This document shows, in pieces, positions 29,118 to 64,000 of a stretch of DNA of 64,000 bases. This DNA comes from an uncultured Pelagibacteraceae bacterium (lineage in GTDB: Bacteria; Pseudomonadota; Alphaproteobacteria; Pelagibacterales; Pelagibacteraceae). The notes beneath the pieces were generated by a model. That model did no database searches. It was not told where the DNA came from and worked only from the letters and a program-made list of their open reading frames with translations. A program made the translations under genes and the position numbers. Numbering within the stretch: position 1 is the stretch's first letter; every line of letters begins with the position of its first letter. The stretch is from contig CACKMS010000006.1 in the NCBI GenBank assembly GCA_902601315.1, forward strand, positions 1 to 64,000, in the 5' to 3' direction.

Positions 29118-29695
29118 TTGTAATTTTCCATGTATGTTTTTATCTGTGTAATTGGTAAGCCCATTATTGTATCTTTATCACCTTCAATTTTCTCAAATAA
29201 ATTTTTTCCCTCTCCTTCTATTTGATAAACATTATAAGTATATAATGCTTCATCTGAGATTTTGTTTAAATAATCTCTTAACTCTGCATCTGAAAAATTT
29301 TTCATAGTTAGTTTTGCTTTATCAGTATGATTCCAAATCATTGAATTGTTCTTTGAAATACAAACAGAACTTATTAGATAATGTGGTTTGCCATTTAATT
29401 TTTTTAATATATTCATCGCCTCCTCTCTCGAAGAAGGTTTTGAAATTAATTCACCATCTAAATCTATTACACTATCAGCGCCTAGTACTAATGCATCATA
29501 TACATTAGAACTAACTTTGTTTGCTTTTAGCTCGGCTAAATTTTTAGAAATAATTTCAGGTGTTGCACCTTCCGCAATCAAACTATCTTTAATTGGATCC
29601 TCATCGACGTTTGATTGAATAACTTCACAATCTATATTGTGTTTAGTTAATATATCTTTCCTAACCTTGCTTTTTGAAGCTAATACAATTTTCAT
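29114..29695 (-). CDS. maf: Maf-family nucleotide pyrophosphatase
   Basis: A 193-residue Maf protein, which hydrolyses non-canonical or specific NTPs (septum-related phenotypes are known for the family). The opening KIVLASKSKVRKDIL, the acidic catalytic stretch VLGADSVIDLDGELISKP and LISSVCISKNN are typical. The late YNVYQIEGEGKNLFEKIEG matches the YnYQIEG-like block. It overlaps the PPDK regulator by one base. Confidence 0.95.
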   Translation of the reverse strand: MKIVLASKSKVRKDILTKHNIDCEVIQSNVDEDPIKDSLIAEGATPEIISKNLAELKANKVSSNVYDALVLGADSVIDLDGELISKPSSREEAMNILKKLNGKPHYLISSVCISKNNSMIWNHTDKAKLTMKNFSDAELRDYLNKISDEALYTYNVYQIEGEGKNLFEKIEGDKDTIMGLPITQIKTYMENYK

Positions 29696-30513
29696 TACTT
29701 ATTTTTTATCTCATAAATTTTAATGATTGAAGCAGCTGTTTCTTCAACGGATTTTCTAGTAACATCTATTGTCGGCCATTGGTTTTTTCTGAAAATTTTT
29801 TTTGAGTTTTCAACCTCTTCTTTAATTTTTTCTAAGTTGGTGTATTCAGTGCTTTCATTTTCCTTTAAACTATTCAGTCTATTCTTTCTTATATCAAATA
29901 ATCTTTCAGCTTCAGTTATTAAACCAACGATACAAGGTTTAAAATTCTTTCCTGTTATTCTTGTAGGTATTGATTTTTCACTAACTAGTGGAATATTTGA
30001 AGTTTTATAGCCTTTGTTAGCCAAATAAATTGATGTTGGGGTTTTGCTTGTTCTGCTGACCCCTAACAAAATAATATCGGATTTCTCCAAATCATCAGTC
30101 TGATTTCCATCATCATGGTTCATTGTAAATTGGATGGCTTCTATTCTTTGATAATATTCTTCATTGAGTGCGTGTTGACCACTTGGTTCGTGCGATGCTC
30201 GTTGATTTAATATTTTAGAAAAACTTTGTATTAAATCACCTAAAACACCAAAACAGGGAATTTGTTTTGATTGAGCTTGATCTGCTAAATACTTGGCAAG
30301 CTTACTATTAACGATTGTATAAAGTATAATTGGGTTTTCTCTTTTTTTTGCCTTTTCTAAAATCTGCTGAATTTGACTTTCTGTTCTTGTGAAAGAAAAA
30401 TTGTTAAGTTCGTATTCAAAGTTTATAAACTGCGCTTTTAAAGCTAAAAAAATTCTATCCAGGGTTTCCCCGGTTGAGTCTGAGATTAGGTAAATTTGAT
30501 GTTCGTTTTTCAT
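29695..30513 (-). CDS. PPDK/PEP synthase regulatory kinase-pyrophosphorylase (DUF299)
   Basis: A 272-residue DUF299 protein, bifunctional serine/threonine kinase and phosphorylase that switches pyruvate, phosphate dikinase or PEP synthase off and on. The N-terminus has LISDSTGETLDRIFLALKAQ, and the key loop is ILLGVSRTSKTPTSIYLA. In Caulobacter and Rickettsia the equivalent gene flanks the replication origin on the side opposite hemE, and here it again faces hemE across an AT-rich gap. It is the first gene of the leftward maf-aroE-coaE-dnaQ set. Confidence 0.93.
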   Translation of the reverse strand: MKNEHQIYLISDSTGETLDRIFLALKAQFINFEYELNNFSFTRTESQIQQILEKAKKRENPIILYTIVNSKLAKYLADQAQSKQIPCFGVLGDLIQSFSKILNQRASHEPSGQHALNEEYYQRIEAIQFTMNHDDGNQTDDLEKSDIILLGVSRTSKTPTSIYLANKGYKTSNIPLVSEKSIPTRITGKNFKPCIVGLITEAERLFDIRKNRLNSLKENESTEYTNLEKIKEEVENSKKIFRKNQWPTIDVTRKSVEETAASIIKIYEIKNK

Positions 30514-30799
30514 GTATAAAATGTCAATAAGATTCTACTAATTTTTAATAATTAATGATTAGTAAACATCTGTAATTAATATTATAAATGATTACTGATA
30601 TTAAACATTTTTTTACATGTTAATTAATTAAAGACCAGAAATCTATAATTGGTAAAAATTACTAACTTGCATTGATAAATAAACGTAAAATTAGTGATTA
30701 AATGTTAATAAATTGTATATAAAGTGTGTAAATTAGATAATTTACGTAATTCACATATCATAATACTAATACAATAAATATTAATTGATCTATTTATAA
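30514..30799. other. Putative chromosomal origin of replication (oriC)
   Basis: A 286-bp gap, the largest non-coding stretch in the window, between hemE and the DUF299 gene, the known site of oriC in Caulobacter and Rickettsia. It is extremely AT-rich, with many TTAA runs such as TTAATTAATTAA (near 30620-30631). Three DnaA-box-like 9-mers each differ at one position from TTWTNCACA: 30714-30722 and 30725-30733 (minus strand), and TAATTCACA at 30747-30755 (plus). One CcrM-type GANTC site, GATTC, is at 30531-30535. Genes diverge from it on both sides and parAB/parS lie 7-9 kb away. No exact consensus DnaA box is present. It must also hold promoters for both flanking genes. Confidence 0.65.
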
Positions 30800-31801
30800 A
30801 TGACTCCAATTCAAAGATGTATTGTTGAGAAAAAGAGCAATCTAAATCCTATATGGTTGATGAGACAAGCTGGAAGATATTTGCCTGAATTTCGTGAAAT
30901 AAGAAGCAAAAATCAAGATTTTATAAAACTGTGCCTGAGTGAAAATTTAGCATCTGAAATTACTTTACAACCTGTAGACAGATTTAATTTAGATGCTGCA
31001 ATTATCTTCTCAGATATTTTAATGTTACCATATGGTTTAAACCAAAGAGTTGAGTTTGAGAAAAATTTTGGTCCAAAGTTAGGTGATTTGAATTTAGATG
31101 AATTAAAAAATGTTGATGAAGTAGATTTTTCTTTTAAACTAAATCCTGTCTATAAGGCAATTAGCATAACATCTAATAAAATTAATAAAAATGAAAAAGA
31201 TTTAATTGGATTTGTTGGTGCTCCATGGACAATTTTAGTATATATGATCAATAAAATTTCTCCCAAAAAAAAACTTAGAGAAGATTTTTTTAAGAATGAA
31301 TTTTTAATCAATAGACTATTATCAATTATTGACAAGTTTCTTAAAATTCACATTAAAAATCAAGTTGAGGCAGGTGCTACGATTATACAAATATTCGATA
31401 GTTGGGCTGGACTGCTTGAAAAAAATATTCCTGAATACATTTACATACCAACTTTAAGCGTTGTAGAATATACAAAAAGCCTTGGTGTGCCAGTTATATG
31501 TTTTCCTAGGGGTATAAAAGATTATAAGAACTTTTGTGATATTGTTAAACCAAGTGCTGTAAATATCGATTATGAGATAGATCCAAAGGATATTGTTAAA
31601 AATATAGATATTCCCATTCAAGGAGGCTTAGACCCAAAGATACTTTTACAAGACGAAGATGTTTTAGAAAAGGAAACTAAAAAATATTTAAGTATATTTA
31701 AAGACCATCCTTACATATTTAATTTAGGACATGGAATTCAACCTCAAACAAAAATTGAGATGGTTGAAAAATTAGTAAAAATTGTAAGATCATTTAATTA
31801 A
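30800..31801 (+). CDS. hemE: Uroporphyrinogen decarboxylase
   Basis: A 333-residue enzyme converting uroporphyrinogen III to coproporphyrinogen III in heme synthesis. The N-terminal signature NPIWLMRQAGRYLPEFREIR is nearly perfect, with IIFSDILMLPYGL, GFVGAPWTILVYMI, IQIFDSWAGLLE and FNLGHGIQPQTKIEMV following. It overlaps hemH by one base, giving a hemE-hemH-hemJ run. It is the first rightward gene from the putative origin. Confidence 0.98.
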   Translation: MTPIQRCIVEKKSNLNPIWLMRQAGRYLPEFREIRSKNQDFIKLCLSENLASEITLQPVDRFNLDAAIIFSDILMLPYGLNQRVEFEKNFGPKLGDLNLDELKNVDEVDFSFKLNPVYKAISITSNKINKNEKDLIGFVGAPWTILVYMINKISPKKKLREDFFKNEFLINRLLSIIDKFLKIHIKNQVEAGATIIQIFDSWAGLLEKNIPEYIYIPTLSVVEYTKSLGVPVICFPRGIKDYKNFCDIVKPSAVNIDYEIDPKDIVKNIDIPIQGGLDPKILLQDEDVLEKETKKYLSIFKDHPYIFNLGHGIQPQTKIEMVEKLVKIVRSFN

Positions 31802-36004: not shown

Positions 36005-37876
36005 ATGAAAAATGAGTTATCGTTTGATGTAGTGGTTATCGGGGGTGGGCATGCTGGTTGTGAGGCAGCAGCAGCATCTGCAAGATTGGGAGTTAACACT
36101 GCCTTATTCACACATAAGTTTGAAACTATAGGGGAAATGTCCTGCAACCCTGCAATAGGTGGACTCGGCAAAGGTCATTTGGTCAGAGAAATAGATGCAT
36201 TAGACGGCGTTATGGGAGAAGTTGCGGACAAATCAGGAATACAATTTAGGCTTTTAAATAGAAGTAGAGGTCCTGCGGTTAGAGGACCCAGAACACAAAG
36301 TGATCGATCATTATACAAAAAATATATGCAAGAAAAACTTGTAAACTACTGTAATTTAAGCATTTATTCTGATCCTGTAATTAGCTTTATATTTAAAAAT
36401 AATGCTATAATTGGCTTTAATACTCAATCAGGTAAAGAAATCAGATCATCTAAGATAATTCTAACAACTGGCACATTTTTAAATGGGCTTATGCATATTG
36501 GGGAGAAAAAAACTCCAGCGGGGAGATATGATGAAAAACCATCAACAGGTTTAAGTGAACAACTAGAAAAGTTTAATTTTAAAGTTGGTAGATTAAAAAC
36601 TGGAACTCCACCAAGATTAGATGCACGAACAATTAACTTTGAAAATTTGGAGGCTCAACATGCAGACGAAGATCCATATTTTTTTTCTTTCTTAACCGAA
36701 AAAAATTTAAACAAACAAATCTCTTGCAGAATGACTTATACCAATGAGGAAGTTCATAAAATCATTTCCAAAAATATTAGGCGAAGCGCTATGTATTCTG
36801 GTAGCATCCAAGGAGTAGGCCCAAGATATTGTCCATCTATAGAGGATAAAATAAAAAAATTCGCTGATAAAAAGCGACACCAAATTTTTTTGGAGCCAGA
36901 AGGTTTAAATGATAATACTATATACCCAAATGGCATTTCAACATCATTACCATCACAGATACAGCAAGAAATATGTAGTAAAATCAATGGTTTAGAGAAT
37001 GTAAAAATATTAAGGCCAGGGTATGCTATTGAATACGATTATATTGATCCAAGAGAGCTATTCTTAACTTTAGAGACTAAAAAAATCAAAAATCTCTATC
37101 TTGCTGGTCAAATAAATGGAACAACTGGATATGAAGAGGCTGCGGCCCAAGGCTTAATCGCTGGAATTAATTCTGCTCTATCTATTAAAGGTGAAGAACC
37201 TTTTATACTTGATAGATCGGATGCTTATATTGGAGTGATGATAGATGATTTGGTTACAAAAGGTGTAGCAGAGCCATATAGAATGTTTACCTCACGAGCT
37301 GAGTATAGATTATCATTAAGGTCAGATAACGCTGATGTTAGATTAACTCAAAAAGGAATTAATTTGGGAGTAGTACTTAATGAGAGAGCTCAGATATTTA
37401 AAGAAAAGCATTTTCAATTAACAAAAATTGAAAATCAAATGTCAAAATTAAAAATTACTCCTTCAAAAGTTGAAAAGTATGGAATTAATATTGCAAAAGA
37501 CGGGATTAGTAGAACTGCTTTCCATATATTAGGTCAAAAATCTGTTAATATGAGTAAAATAAGGGAAATTTGGCCAGAAATACCTTATGTTTCACGTGAA
37601 ATAGATGAGCAAGTAGAAATAAACTCTCATTATAAAGGTTATTTGAAGAAGCAAAAAGCTGACATTTTAGCTTTCAAAAGAGATGAAAATTTAATAATTC
37701 CAGAAAACATTAATTATGATAAATTTTCAGGCCTATCAAATGAAGTCAAGTCGAAATTTAAGAAAATAAAGCCTAAAACTATGGGCCAAGCCCTTAGGAT
37801 AGATGGAATAACACCTGCAGCCGTATATATTTTATTGTCTCATCTTAAAAGAAAGTCTATTAAGCATATAGCTTGA
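36005..37876 (+). CDS. mnmG: tRNA uridine modification enzyme MnmG
   Basis: A 623-residue FAD enzyme working with MnmE on tRNA wobble uridine. It starts with the FAD loop [20 protein letters not shown]. Then come [32 protein letters not shown] and [20 protein letters not shown]. The C-terminal helical domain ends [21 protein letters not shown] near-perfect ParB site lies inside the gene at 37588-37603. The stop TGA overlaps the TTG start of rsmG (TTGA). Confidence 0.98.
37588..37603. other. parS-like ParB binding site inside mnmG
   Basis: TGTTTCACGTGAAATA matches the universal parS palindrome TGTTTCACGTGAAACA at 15 of 16 positions, with one change in the right arm. It is read in frame as part of mnmG. 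ParB dimers load on such sites and spread. It sits about 920 bp before parA. Confidence 0.88.
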
Positions 37877-38511
37877 TTGATTCGTATTTTTTAAAAACAG
37901 TTCCAAAATTTAATTTAGATGTTTCACGTGAAACACTCGAAAGGTTAGATGAGTATTCAAAAGACATAATTTTAAAAAATAAAGAAATAAATTTAATTAG
38001 CAAAAGCACAGAAAGCTCAATAAAATCAAGGCATATTGCTGATAGCATGCAAACCATTGATTTTATTGATAAAAATGACATTAAAACGTGTACCGACTTA
38101 GGTTCGGGGGCAGGTTTACCAGGAATTGTCCTAGGTATTATCATGAGTTCGAAAAATCCTACATTTAAAGTGATTTTTTATGAAAAAAGTTATCATAAAA
38201 GTAATTTCTTAAGAGAAATGTCCAAAAAATTTAAACTGGATGCGGAAATTTATCAAAAAAATATTTTTAACGAAAAAAATTTAATTACAGACGTCATAAT
38301 TTCACGTGCCTTTAAACCTTTGCCAGTAATTTTTCAAATTGCGAAAACAAATTTTAAAAATTTTAAATACATAATTTTATTTTTAGGAAAAAATGGAAAA
38401 AAGATTTTAAAAGATGCAATGAAAAATTGGAAATTTGATTATGAAGAGAGAAAAAGTGTAACCAGCGACGAGTCAATCATTGTGAAAATATCTAATCTTA
38501 AAAAAATATGA
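37873..38511 (+). CDS. rsmG: 16S rRNA (guanine-527 N7) methyltransferase
   Basis: A 212-residue SAM-dependent methyltransferase (GidB). The SAM loop [16 protein letters not shown] is clear, and [14 protein letters not shown] matches a family block. The only plausible start is TTG at 37873, which overlaps the mnmG stop; the next Met is far inside. A perfect parS site lies in its 5' part, encoding the VSRET stretch near residues 17-21. It overlaps parA by 4 nt. Confidence 0.96.
37920..37935. other. Perfect parS site inside rsmG
   Basis: TGTTTCACGTGAAACA is an exact copy of the consensus 16-bp chromosomal parS palindrome. It lies within the rsmG coding sequence, 573 bp before parA and 332 bp after the first site. 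It marks the centromere-like region where ParB loads. Confidence 0.95.
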
Positions 38512-39308
38512 ATAGAAAAATTATTTCAGTGATAAATCAGAAAGGTGGAGTGGGGAAGACAACAACAATAATTAATTTGGCTGCTGGTTTGTCTCTTAAA
38601 GAAAAAAAAATTCTTGTGATTGACCTTGACCCACAAGGAAATGCCACAACTGGTCTTGGATTATCCAACTCAGGTACATCTGATAATACAATTTATAGTG
38701 TTTTAAATGGAAACAAAAAAATATCCGACGTGATACAAAAAACTGAATTTAAAAACTTAGATATTATTACCTCTAACGTAGATTTATCAGGACTCGAGGT
38801 TGAAACTGCTGGTGACAGCCGAAGAGCATTTAAATTAAAAGATGAATTATCCTCTATTTTAAATGATTCTAGAACATCCTATCATTATATACTAATTGAC
38901 TGCCCTCCATCTCTTAGTCTTCTCACAATTATGGCCTTAGTTGCCTCTGATGCTTTGGTAGTCCCACTTCAAACTGAGTTTTTCGCTTTAGAGGGCTTAA
39001 CCCAATTAATGAAAACTATTGAAAGGATTAAATCGAATTTAAATCCTATCCTAGAGATAAGAGGGATCCTCCTTACGATGTATGATAAGAGAAATAAGTT
39101 GTCCAGTCAGGTGGAGATGGAAGCTAGAAATTTTTTTAAAGAAAAAGTTTATAACACAGCAGTGCCGAGAAATGTACGGTTATCCGAAGCGCCCTCTCAT
39201 GGAGTTCCAGTATTAATTTACGATAAGCTTTGTCCAGGTAGTAAAGCGTATTTTAGTTTCACTGAAGAATTTTTAGAACAAGAAAAAGAAATTGAGACTG
39301 CTGCATGA
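38508..39308 (+). CDS. parA: Chromosome partitioning ATPase ParA
   Basis: A 266-residue deviant Walker-A ATPase that moves ParB-parS complexes over the nucleoid. The opening VINQKGGVGKTTTIINLAAG has the signature Lys, and LVIDLDPQGNATTGLGL and ILIDCPPSLSLLTIMAL are the other nucleotide motifs. No N-terminal DNA-binding domain is present, as in chromosomal (Soj-type) ParA. It overlaps parB by 4 nt (ATGA). Confidence 0.98.
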   Translation: MNRKIISVINQKGGVGKTTTIINLAAGLSLKEKKILVIDLDPQGNATTGLGLSNSGTSDNTIYSVLNGNKKISDVIQKTEFKNLDIITSNVDLSGLEVETAGDSRRAFKLKDELSSILNDSRTSYHYILIDCPPSLSLLTIMALVASDALVVPLQTEFFALEGLTQLMKTIERIKSNLNPILEIRGILLTMYDKRNKLSSQVEMEARNFFKEKVYNTAVPRNVRLSEAPSHGVPVLIYDKLCPGSKAYFSFTEEFLEQEKEIETAA

Positions 39309-40153
39309 TAAATCCGTTTAAAAATAAAAAAGGATTAGGAAGAGGTTTGTCATCCCTGATCGGAGATAGTGATGTAAAGATTACAAACAATAAAATATCG
39401 ATTAGTTCTATTATTCCAAATAAATATCAACCAAGAAAAAACTTTGATAAAAATAGCTTAGAAGAACTCACAGCATCAATTCGTGAAAGAGGAATTATTC
39501 AGCCAATAATTGTTAGAGCATCAGAAGATAGCAATGACAAATATGAATTGATAGCAGGAGAAAGAAGATGGCAAGCAGCACAAAATGCTGGCTTGCACGA
39601 AGTTCCAGCAGTAATTCTTAATGTAGACAATCTTATGTCCCTTGAATTTGCAATTGTTGAAAATGTTCAAAGAAAGGATCTTAACCCTATCGAGGAAGCA
39701 GAGGGATATCAAAGATTAATTAACGAATTTAATTATGATCAAGACAAAGTTGCGAAATTTATTGGTAAGAGCAGAGCACATATATCTAACTGCATAAGAT
39801 TATTAAGTCTTCCAGCTAAGGTAATTGAGCACATTATCAATGACAAATTATCTCCAGGCCATGCCAAGATTTTAGTTGGTTTAGATAACTCTGAGTTATT
39901 GGCTGAGAAAATAATCAAAAAAAAATTATCGGTTAGACAAGCAGAAGCACTTGTCAGATTGGTAAAGAGCAATAAAAGTCCAAATAAATCAAAAGATCCA
40001 AATTCAACAGATATTGAGAACCAACTCAGTTCCAAAATTGGTATGAAGGTATTTTTAAATAATAAAAAAAATAATACCGGCACATTAATTTTTGAGTATA
40101 AAGGTGTTGATCAACTAGATCGTTTAATCAAAATAATTAAGGAAAATTATTAA
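39305..40153 (+). CDS. parB: Chromosome partitioning protein ParB
   Basis: A 282-residue CTP-dependent DNA clamp. It starts with GLGRGLSSLIGD, followed by the CTPase domain with AGERRWQAAQNAGLHEVPA and ENVQRKDLNPIEEAEGYQRL, and a helix-turn-helix (DQDKVAKFIGKSRAHISNCI) that reads parS. The C-terminal dimer region ends LDRLIKIIKENY. Its own parS sites are within 2.6 kb. The stop overlaps holA by 4 nt. Confidence 0.98.
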   Translation: MINPFKNKKGLGRGLSSLIGDSDVKITNNKISISSIIPNKYQPRKNFDKNSLEELTASIRERGIIQPIIVRASEDSNDKYELIAGERRWQAAQNAGLHEVPAVILNVDNLMSLEFAIVENVQRKDLNPIEEAEGYQRLINEFNYDQDKVAKFIGKSRAHISNCIRLLSLPAKVIEHIINDKLSPGHAKILVGLDNSELLAEKIIKKKLSVRQAEALVRLVKSNKSPNKSKDPNSTDIENQLSSKIGMKVFLNNKKNNTGTLIFEYKGVDQLDRLIKIIKENY

Positions 40154-50942: not shown

Positions 50943-51596
50943 TTATGCTTTCTTTGTTTTAAGAGGTTTTTTTCTATTAGGATAGCAAGTAGTGCAAATT
51001 TTACAAGAAATTCCGTAACATTCTCTAGCCTTACAATATTCACGACCATAATAAATTATTTGAAGATGTAATTTGTTCCAATGTTTTTTAGGAAATAATC
51101 TTTTCAGGTCCTTTTCAGTTTGCACAACGTTTTTTCCGTTGGTGAGCCCCCATCTTTGAGCCAATCTATGTATATGGGTATCTATTGGGAAAGCAGGAAA
51201 TCCAAATCCTTGTGACATGACTACGCTTGCTGTTTTATGTCCAACGCCAGGTAGTTTTTCGAGATCTTCGAAAGATCTTGGTACTTTTCCTTTGTAATTT
51301 TTTACCAATATTTGTGATAGAATATAAATACTTTTTGCTTTAATTCTAAAAATTCCAATTTTTTGTATTAGTTTTTCTATTTTTTTCCTACCAAGTTTGA
51401 CAAAATGTTCAGGTTTATAATATTTTGGATAAATATCTTTAGTTACATTATTTACATTTTTGTCGGTACACTGAGCAGACAAAAGAACAGAGATGAGAAG
51501 TGTAAAAATATTTTTATGTTTTAATGGAATTTGCGTTTTAGGATAAAATTTATTAAGTTGTATTAAAACTATTTTAGCCCTTTGGACTTCATTCAT
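50943..51596 (-). CDS. nth: Endonuclease III
   Basis: A 217-residue DNA glycosylase/AP lyase for oxidised pyrimidines. The helix-hairpin-helix LEKLPGVGHKTASVVMSQGF with the catalytic Lys and the following FPIDTHIHRLAQRWGL with its Asp are intact. The C-terminal iron-sulfur loop is odd: its cysteines read C-x4-C-x4-C-x2-C-x2-C and not the usual C-x6-C-x2-C-x5-C. The gene overlaps dapB by one base. Confidence 0.95.
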   Translation of the reverse strand: MNEVQRAKIVLIQLNKFYPKTQIPLKHKNIFTLLISVLLSAQCTDKNVNNVTKDIYPKYYKPEHFVKLGRKKIEKLIQKIGIFRIKAKSIYILSQILVKNYKGKVPRSFEDLEKLPGVGHKTASVVMSQGFGFPAFPIDTHIHRLAQRWGLTNGKNVVQTEKDLKRLFPKKHWNKLHLQIIYYGREYCKARECYGISCKICTTCYPNRKKPLKTKKA

Positions 51597-52372
51597 TATT
51601 CAAAATTTAATACATCTCTCATTGAATAAAGACCTGGTTTTTTTGATTTTATCCACTTTGCAGCCGTAATTGCTCCTTCTGAATAAAGAGCTCTATCAAA
51701 AGCCTCATGGTTTAGAGTGATTATCTCTTTACCACTAGAAAATTTAACTTCATGTTCACCGATAATTTCACCTTTCCTTATCGAATTAAAATTTATCTTT
51801 TTGTTATATGGAAATTTTTTCTTATTTAGTAATTTTTTTCCAAGTAATTTATAAAAATCTTTATTTTTACCAACAGCTATACCTTTCCCAAGCATTAAAG
51901 CGGTTCCAGATGGAAAATCTTTTTTATGTTTGTGATGAACTTCAAAAATTTTACTTAAATATTTATCCCCAAGTGCTTTTGATGTTATTTCAGTTAAATA
52001 CATTAGGAGATTTATTCCAAGACTCATATTACCAGCCTTTAAAATAGGAATTTTTTTTGAAATTTTTTTAATCTTATCCTCTTCGGATTTAGTAAAACCA
52101 GTGGTTCCAATAACAACTCTTTTCTTTAATTTTGAAGCTATTTTCAAAACTTCAAAGGTGCATTTAGGCACTGTGAAATCTATTATTACATCTGTTTTTT
52201 TAAACAGATTATCATTATTTAATTGTGGTTTAATCCCACCTATCTTTCTTTTTATTAATATATTTTCAGTTAAACCAATAAGTTTTATAGCTCTGTCAGT
52301 CTTTATGGATTTTATCAGCTGTTGACCCATTCTCCCCATGCACCCAGTTATTACTAAATTTATTTTTTTCAT
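51596..52372 (-). CDS. dapB: 4-Hydroxy-tetrahydrodipicolinate reductase
   Basis: A 258-residue NAD(P)H enzyme of lysine and diaminopimelate synthesis. The dinucleotide loop is VITGCMGRMGQQLIKSI, and DVIIDFTVPKCTFEVLKIAS, VVIGTTGFTKSEEDKI, ILKAGNMSLGINLLMYL and EVHHKHKKDFPSGTALML with the catalytic His and Lys follow. It lies between dnaJ and nth in one co-directional set. Confidence 0.97.
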   Translation of the reverse strand: MKKINLVITGCMGRMGQQLIKSIKTDRAIKLIGLTENILIKRKIGGIKPQLNNDNLFKKTDVIIDFTVPKCTFEVLKIASKLKKRVVIGTTGFTKSEEDKIKKISKKIPILKAGNMSLGINLLMYLTEITSKALGDKYLSKIFEVHHKHKKDFPSGTALMLGKGIAVGKNKDFYKLLGKKLLNKKKFPYNKKINFNSIRKGEIIGEHEVKFSSGKEIITLNHEAFDRALYSEGAITAAKWIKSKKPGLYSMRDVLNFE

Positions 52373-63299: not shown

Positions 63300-63303
63300 C
63301 TTT

Positions 63304-64000
63304 ATGGCTAAAAAAATTTTTTCAGGAGTCCAACCGACAGGAAATCTACATTTAGGAAATTATTTAGGTGCAATAAAAAATTTTGTAGAACTGCAGAATG
63401 AAAAGGATAATAATTGCATATATTGTGTTGTTGACTTGCATGCAATTACTTTGAAACAGGATCCAAAAGAACTAAAAAATAATATTAGAGAAACTGCTGC
63501 AACATTTATTGCAAGTGGACTTAATCCAAACAAAAGCATTTTGTTCAATCAATCTTTAGTTCCCGCACACTCAGAGGGTTCTTGGATATTGAGTTGTATT
63601 GCCAGAATGGGTTGGCTTAACAGGATGACACAGTTTAAAGAAAAAGCAGGAAAAGATAAGGAGAAAGCAAGCGTAGGCCTTTACATCTATCCTATTCTTA
63701 TGGCTGCAGATATTATGTTGTATGATGCAACACATGTTCCAGTTGGCGATGATCAGAAGCAACACTTAGAACTTTGTCGCGATATAGCTCAAAAATTCAA
63801 TAATGATTATAATGTTCAAGATTTCCTAGTTCCTCCTGAACCATTAATACAAAAACAATTTTCCAGAATTATGAGCTTAAAGGATGGTTCAAAAAAAATG
63901 AGTAAATCAGAAATTTCAGATTTAAGTAGAATAAACTTAAAAGACAGTAAAGATTTAATAATTAATAAAATTAAAAAAGCAAAAACAGATCCACATCCTA
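63304..64000 (+). CDS. trpS: Tryptophanyl-tRNA synthetase, N-terminal part (runs off window)
   Basis: The first 232 codons of a class I tryptophanyl-tRNA synthetase, beginning at the ATG at 63304. The opening [17 protein letters not shown] carries the HIGH-type motif, followed by [46 protein letters not shown] and the KMSKS loop KKMSKSE near residue 198. The gene continues past the window end, so its length cannot be judged. Confidence 0.97.

Follow-up and report, generated by a model that had tools for sequence, protein, structure and literature searches.

The window analysed here is a stretch of 64,000 nucleotides (C6:1-64000) from a genome of 1.2 Mb in 31 contigs, 85.8% complete. Its closest named relatives are uncultured Pelagibacteraceae of the SAR11 group. 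A gap of 286 bp in this window separates two ORFs that border it at positions 30513 and 30800 (Table 1). As an earlier note on this DNA had stated, the flanking genes diverge, with DUF299 on the minus and hemE on the plus strand, and the gap is the largest between genes: it is the longest ORF-free stretch of the window when ORFs of at least 60 aa are counted (a cut-off of 100 aa leaves two longer uncovered stretches, 63300-64000 at the window edge and 1460-1833). The order maf-aroE-coaE-dnaQ that the note gave past DUF299 is matched by the Pfam names, which are Maf, shikimate dehydrogenase (AroE), CoaE, and a dnaQ-like exonuclease. On the other side, HemE (URO-D) is followed by ferrochelatase, Rho, a ParA-type ATPase, and ParB, and the parAB genes with two nearby parS sites are also where the note had placed them.

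Table 1. Features of the DUF299/hemE locus, in window positions.
Feature	Position	Strand	Basis or remark
DUF299/Kinase-PPPase (COG1806) gene, left flank	29695..30513	-	Pfam PF03618, E 1.8e-92
Predicted oriC: divergent intergenic gap DUF299 (COG1806)/hemE	30514..30799		Gap conserved in loci; pooled skew contrast
DnaA-box-like site TTATTGACA, DUF299 edge	30522..30530	-	One mismatch to TTATNCACA
GANTC site	30531..30535		Not recurrent in relatives
Highly conserved hemE-side part of predicted origin	30701..30799		1-4 differences in 99 bp to 8 close relatives
DnaA-box-like site TTATTAACA	30703..30711	-	Recurs as ATGTTAATAA in relatives
DnaA-box-like site TTATATACA	30714..30722	-	Aligned with box-like sites of relatives
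DnaA-box-like site ATTTACACA	30725..30733	-	One mismatch to TTWTNCACA, more to TTATNCACA; aligned with TGTTTATAA-type sites
Weak 9-mer TAATTTACG, adjoins next box; possible second box of tandem pair	30738..30746	+	3 mismatches
DnaA-box-like site TAATTCACA (TTATTCACA in several relatives)	30747..30755	+	Alignment and mismatch count
Four trinucleotide repeats ATA ATA CTA ATA, DnaA-trio-like	30760..30771	+	Opposite strand 3'-TAT TAT GAT TAT-5'; 4 bp after box
hemE, right flank	30800..31801	+	Pfam PF01208, E 1.2e-80
parS-like site, 1 mismatch	37588..37603		6.8 kb from gap
Perfect parS palindrome	37920..37935		7.1 kb from gap
parA and parB	38508..40153	+	ORFs and Pfam

The locus is widespread in the family. 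Probes for hemE and DUF299 matched 166 and 162 of its 197 genomes, respectively, and incomplete genomes and distant relatives would account for at least part of the misses. We collected 131 loci (the window, L002-L111, and L154-L173), among which L002 duplicates the window itself and several other contigs, judged by their length, are present twice (L004/L075, L005/L080, L006/L086); 20 of the cut-out regions were picked by hand to span genera. DUF299 and hemE diverge from one gap of 255-297 bp in 130 of these loci. The exception, L039, is interrupted by a contig end and was dropped. The genomes handled that have the syntenic gap cover 11 of the 14 genera sampled in the family. Adding L174-L181 gave 138 gaps (133 distinct, 132 without N), from which we drew 45 representatives with less than 75% gap identity. 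The description of the gap as AT-rich with TTAA clusters stands (78-87% AT in the loci); TTAA itself is slightly enriched, with 894 strand matches over the 45 gaps versus a shuffle mean of 803 and a maximum of 888 (60 rounds).

Divergent flanking genes would also suit a gap that serves only as a two-way promoter for DUF299 and hemE and is kept for regulation, the origin lying elsewhere, e.g., near dnaA. We regard this as very improbable. In all seven loci of genus g9 (L175-L181), a rho-like gene, whose N-terminus resembles that of the window's Rho, stands in the place of hemE, yet a gap of 346-353 bp is kept beside DUF299. The gap is thus independent of hemE. The hemE probe matches the seven g9 genomes weakly, with E 1e-20 to 6e-24 for six of them and 2.5e-55 for G066.

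The GC skew was expected to switch at the gap. As the window's own genome is in 31 contigs, we used sampled stretches of six single-contig relatives, and the change of base skew at the site is found there. In all six, stretches right of the gap have positive skew and those left of it have negative skew, and the leading strand carries 61-68% of the coding length in each. The pooled arm-to-arm contrast, oriented by hemE and with G043 weighing about twice as much as each other genome, peaks at the gap, at an offset of 0.000 in units of chromosome length (5-95% bootstrap interval -0.025 to +0.020). All skew tests assume an exactly opposite terminus; HTCC1062 is listed among chromosomes with possibly unequal arms (PMC2099444, in part). 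Single genomes, whose genes were called with a crude ORF caller here and in the synonymous-site analyses, have their best offsets 9-128 kb away on one or the other side of the gap, which 2-13% of the positions tried equal or beat.

These data also bear on an origin at dnaA. This gene is just 61-64 kb from the gap in six genomes of the genus, and origins were put at dnaA if the skew agreed within 7% of the length in an earlier survey (PMC2031905, in part). However, dnaA (+0.042 to +0.053) falls outside the pooled skew interval, the pooled contrast is lower there (0.0888 versus 0.1019 at the gap), and the box-like sites at three dnaA loci are scattered, with 4, 4, and 1 per 3.5 kb. We therefore rejected this location. 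The gene lies 61-64 kb away on the hemE side in seven g1 genomes and one g12 genome, and 70-73 kb away on the DUF299 side in one g5 and two g9 genomes (contigs taken as circular). Such a swap of sides at similar distance is expected of inversions symmetric about an origin, and it argues against an origin at dnaA that parS switches side between genera as well, its distance from the gap again being similar. By genome, dnaA and parS are on opposite sides at similar distance in G005, G009, and G022 versus G040 and the seven g1 genomes. Each of 12 genomes examined has a parS match with 0-1 mismatches no more than 20 kb from the gap; two-mismatch matches distant from the gap number six, in five of the 12.

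The arm-to-arm contrast in skew at synonymous (4-fold) sites, which in G043 speaks against the origin, has opposite signs in G043 and G026, two species that share a genus (stretches L114-L152 and L202-L221). The contrast is -0.101 (CI -0.134 to -0.070) in G043, which is near the window's species and has an intergenic contrast near zero (0.005), and +0.126 (CI 0.079 to 0.169) in G026. Within G043, and likewise within G026, all seven codon families point the same way. The remaining four genomes have a CI that spans zero and mixed codon families. Codon selection on leading-strand genes could mimic such a difference in synonymous skew.

We then consider the DnaA-box-like sites. TTATCCACA has no match in the gap at 0 or 1 mismatch. 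TTATNCACA has four one-mismatch sites (30522, 30703, 30714, 30747) versus 1.08 in dinucleotide shuffles, and four or more occur in a fraction of 0.013 of 400 shuffles of the gap. The three one-mismatch 9-mers reported in 30714-30755 were recovered at 30714, 30725, and 30747 with TTWTNCACA, which has three more such sites in the gap (30522, 30609, 30703). In an alignment of 43 gaps, the 9-mers listed in the note align with box-like sites of relatives, as it had predicted. The box count in the window's gap alone is modestly above chance; it is convincing by recurrence in relatives. In the 45 diverged representatives, box-like 9-mers (TTATNCACA, at most one mismatch) number 164 versus 36.1 in dinucleotide shuffles (maximum 52), a 4.5-fold excess, and 35 of the 45 are above 95% of their own shuffles. 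The reversed-pattern control gives 46 versus 40.6. The sites recur in certain places: on the minus strand at the DUF299 edge, where one 10-bp bin on the strand of the 30522 site holds 29 of the 164, on both strands mid-gap, and on the minus and then the plus strand near hemE. Strict TTATNCACA is present in 19 of the 45 representatives and absent in 26. The 'unusually weak DnaA-box set' of the earlier note is therefore an apt description of the window's clade (0 of 9 gaps with strict TTATNCACA) and does not set it apart within SAR11.

Box density as stand-alone evidence for an origin was rejected because other places are denser: a stretch of the window at 51.4 kb has five sites in 286 bp versus four in the gap, and the gap falls outside the eight densest places of G043. 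The former (51401-51706) is coding sequence read as nth/dapB, and its five sites are probably due to chance. We take the RDHTTVIH stretch of domain IV to be the part of DnaA that reads the box. The genome's own DnaA keeps this stretch, identical in the aligned DnaA chain 8btg, and recognition of TTATNCACA-like sites is thus expected.

The hemE-side part of the gap is conserved beyond its surroundings (Table 1). Against the same eight close relatives, the left part of the gap differs by 11-17%, hemE by 10-14% overall and by 20-29% at third codon positions, and the 58-bp core 30714-30771 has 0-2 differing positions. This part is directly before hemE, which would suit the two-way promoter, as would the second hexamers of two promoter-like matches, which coincide with or adjoin the beginning of the repeats; but two such matches are fewer than in shuffles (5.2). 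A structured RNA of unknown type encoded in the conserved part is less probable still, even if conservation exceeds that of the coding flanks and an imperfect inverted repeat is present (30716-30735/30738-30757), because Rfam (E up to 1, region 29500-31800) has no match within the gap and a sole sub-threshold match outside it (30191-30239), the recurrent columns are box- and repeat-shaped, and oppositely oriented boxes alone would yield such an inverted repeat.

We return to the gap as an origin, in which these columns form a module. In the window it comprises the box TAATTCACA (two mismatches to TTATCCACA), a 4-bp spacer, and four NTA repeats, and falls within the published definition of the basal unwinding system, or BUS (box with at most two mismatches to TTATCCACA, spacer of 0-16 bp, at least three trios). 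A strict module (box with at most one mismatch, spacer of at most 8, at least four NTA) is found in 14 of the 45 representatives, in none of 40 shuffle rounds, and the other strand has it in 0 of 45. Scans of 780 kb of G043 and of 84 kb of the window's own contig each gave a single occurrence, in the gap both times. A lax module with a TTATNCACA box is found in 34 of the 45, in some of them away from the conserved place; shuffling gives 11.0 gaps and the other strand 13 of 45. Over the 133 distinct gaps the figures are 118, 29.9, and 66. With a spacer of 3-7 and at least three repeats, the module is found in 24 of the 45 (in L011 and L162 elsewhere in the gap), and 17 of these 24 have an upstream 9-mer with at most three mismatches versus 29% at random positions. 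A fixed-spacing pattern has three perfect matches in 12 assemblies, one each in the gap of the own genome, G043, and G063, and the one in the window's gap is the sole perfect match of its assembly. At up to one mismatch there are 24 matches in the 12 genomes, 16 outside the gap and eight within it (G000, G017, G022, G026, G035, G043, G063, G078), with no in-gap match in G003, G005, G009, and G040. Since the reversed control (50) exceeds these 24, we give weight only to the perfect matches and to where they lie.

Other control signals were considered. The GANTC site singled out earlier is present, but it fails as a signal: the 45 gaps have 6 strand matches (3 sites), fewer than shuffles (14.3), and control of the origin by CcrM/GANTC was rejected for this reason. 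SAR11 has a CcrM homolog (PMC3973325, in part). Exact TTAA-N7-TTAA is absent from the window's gap and has 38 matches in the 45 gaps (shuffle mean 24, maximum 40). TTAA-N7-TTAAC with one mismatch has 2 and 100 (52.1, maximum 74), an excess that perhaps comes from TTAAC within box-like sites. CtrA-type sites are thus not clearly above shuffles, and CtrA control of the Caulobacter type is not supported. This is in line with Pelagibacter having no ctrA ortholog (PMC2877005, in part); CtrA sites are a feature of ctrA-bearing groups. The IHF pattern has 8 exact matches in the 45 gaps versus 3.6 in shuffles (maximum 9), and 171 versus 89.9 (maximum 112) at one mismatch, with none in the window's gap in either case. 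A dif site as terminus marker was discarded, since matches to a dif pattern are at the level of its reversed control; P. ubique is described as without dif/Xer (PMC2731167, in part).

In summary, synteny, the pooled skew at the gap in relatives, and the recurrent 9-mers, all observed directly, as are the place, the conservation, and the rarity of the module, back the earlier proposal of a replication origin. We are highly confident that the gap is the oriC of a SAR11 (Pelagibacteraceae) genome, of the Caulobacter/Rickettsia hemE-COG1806 type. It has the hemE/COG1806 gap of alphaproteobacterial origins and a cluster of DnaA boxes, in the window with one-mismatch boxes only. DnaA binding, opening at the repeats, and bidirectional initiation are what we infer from this arrangement. 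DnaA would load on boxes that are mostly of low affinity, namely a single one at the DUF299 edge and the group at 30703-30755 on the hemE side. A filament would then extend from the box at 30747-30755, possibly together with the abutting weak box, onto the repeats at 30760-30771, where the AT-rich DNA would open. Helicases would load, forks would depart both ways, and ParB on parS 7 kb away would segregate the new origins. As the mechanism, we favour opening at the trinucleotide repeats as the likeliest and think it probable. More tentatively, the SAR11 origin might be minimal and CtrA-free, its working part being the hemE-side ~99 bp, with low-affinity boxes that feed a DnaA-trio element; initiation might then be set by the level of active DnaA alone, without a high-affinity anchor in lineages like the window's.

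A located SAR11 origin is not new, because the oriC of HTCC1062 is already marked in print as 'manually identified' (PMC4033161, in part). A Fonsibacter genome has an ordinary cumulative GC skew (PMC6811365, in part), and SAR11 coverage is reported as V-shaped with one origin, at a place not stated (PMC9589681, in part). A literature search, covering the accessible parts of papers, returned neither a SAR11 origin sequence nor a description of the conserved module. The place of the origin is thus not new in kind, and the conserved module is the addition. SAR11 rank among the most abundant marine bacteria, and estimates of growth rate from metagenomic data rely on origin and terminus. With a defined 99-bp element, this origin could be tested in vitro, and its lack of ctrA and of strict boxes would show with how few parts an alphaproteobacterial origin can manage.

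In Caulobacter and Rickettsia, the gene order beyond COG1806 presumably continues to dnaQ too. The origins of Caulobacter crescentus (Cori) and Rickettsia prowazekii share with the window the same two flanking genes, an AT-rich gap, and DnaA-box-like sites (PMC1914354, in part), and the same source bears out the earlier statement that oriC lies between hemE and COG1806 in these bacteria. Unlike this type, the window's gap is without a strict DnaA box and without an IHF pattern match at 0 or 1 mismatch, and SAR11 gaps differ from it in their CtrA sites, which do not stand out from shuffles. The origins of Wolbachia and Ehrlichia also have hemE as one border, lie in AT-rich genomes, and were predicted, as here, from border genes and sites (PMC1914354, in part). 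The other border is COG1253 in Wolbachia (same source) and COG1806 in the window, and the g9 gaps depart from the hemE border of both groups by their rho-like gene. A published BUS is made up of a DnaA-box and at least three trinucleotides with a central A on the other strand, set apart by a spacer of up to 16 bp (PMC8287927, in part). The BUS of Bacillus subtilis and many bacteria has a DnaA-box, a short spacer, and central-A repeats on the opposite strand, as in the window (PMC8287927 and PMC6669920, in part). Unlike in those systems, the module is here a predicted one, the window's box is weaker, the repeats are ATA/CTA and only four, and dnaA is 62 kb away. The order of the elements is that of the Clostridioides difficile example, 5'-CACCTACTACTA... 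(PMC7561715, in part).
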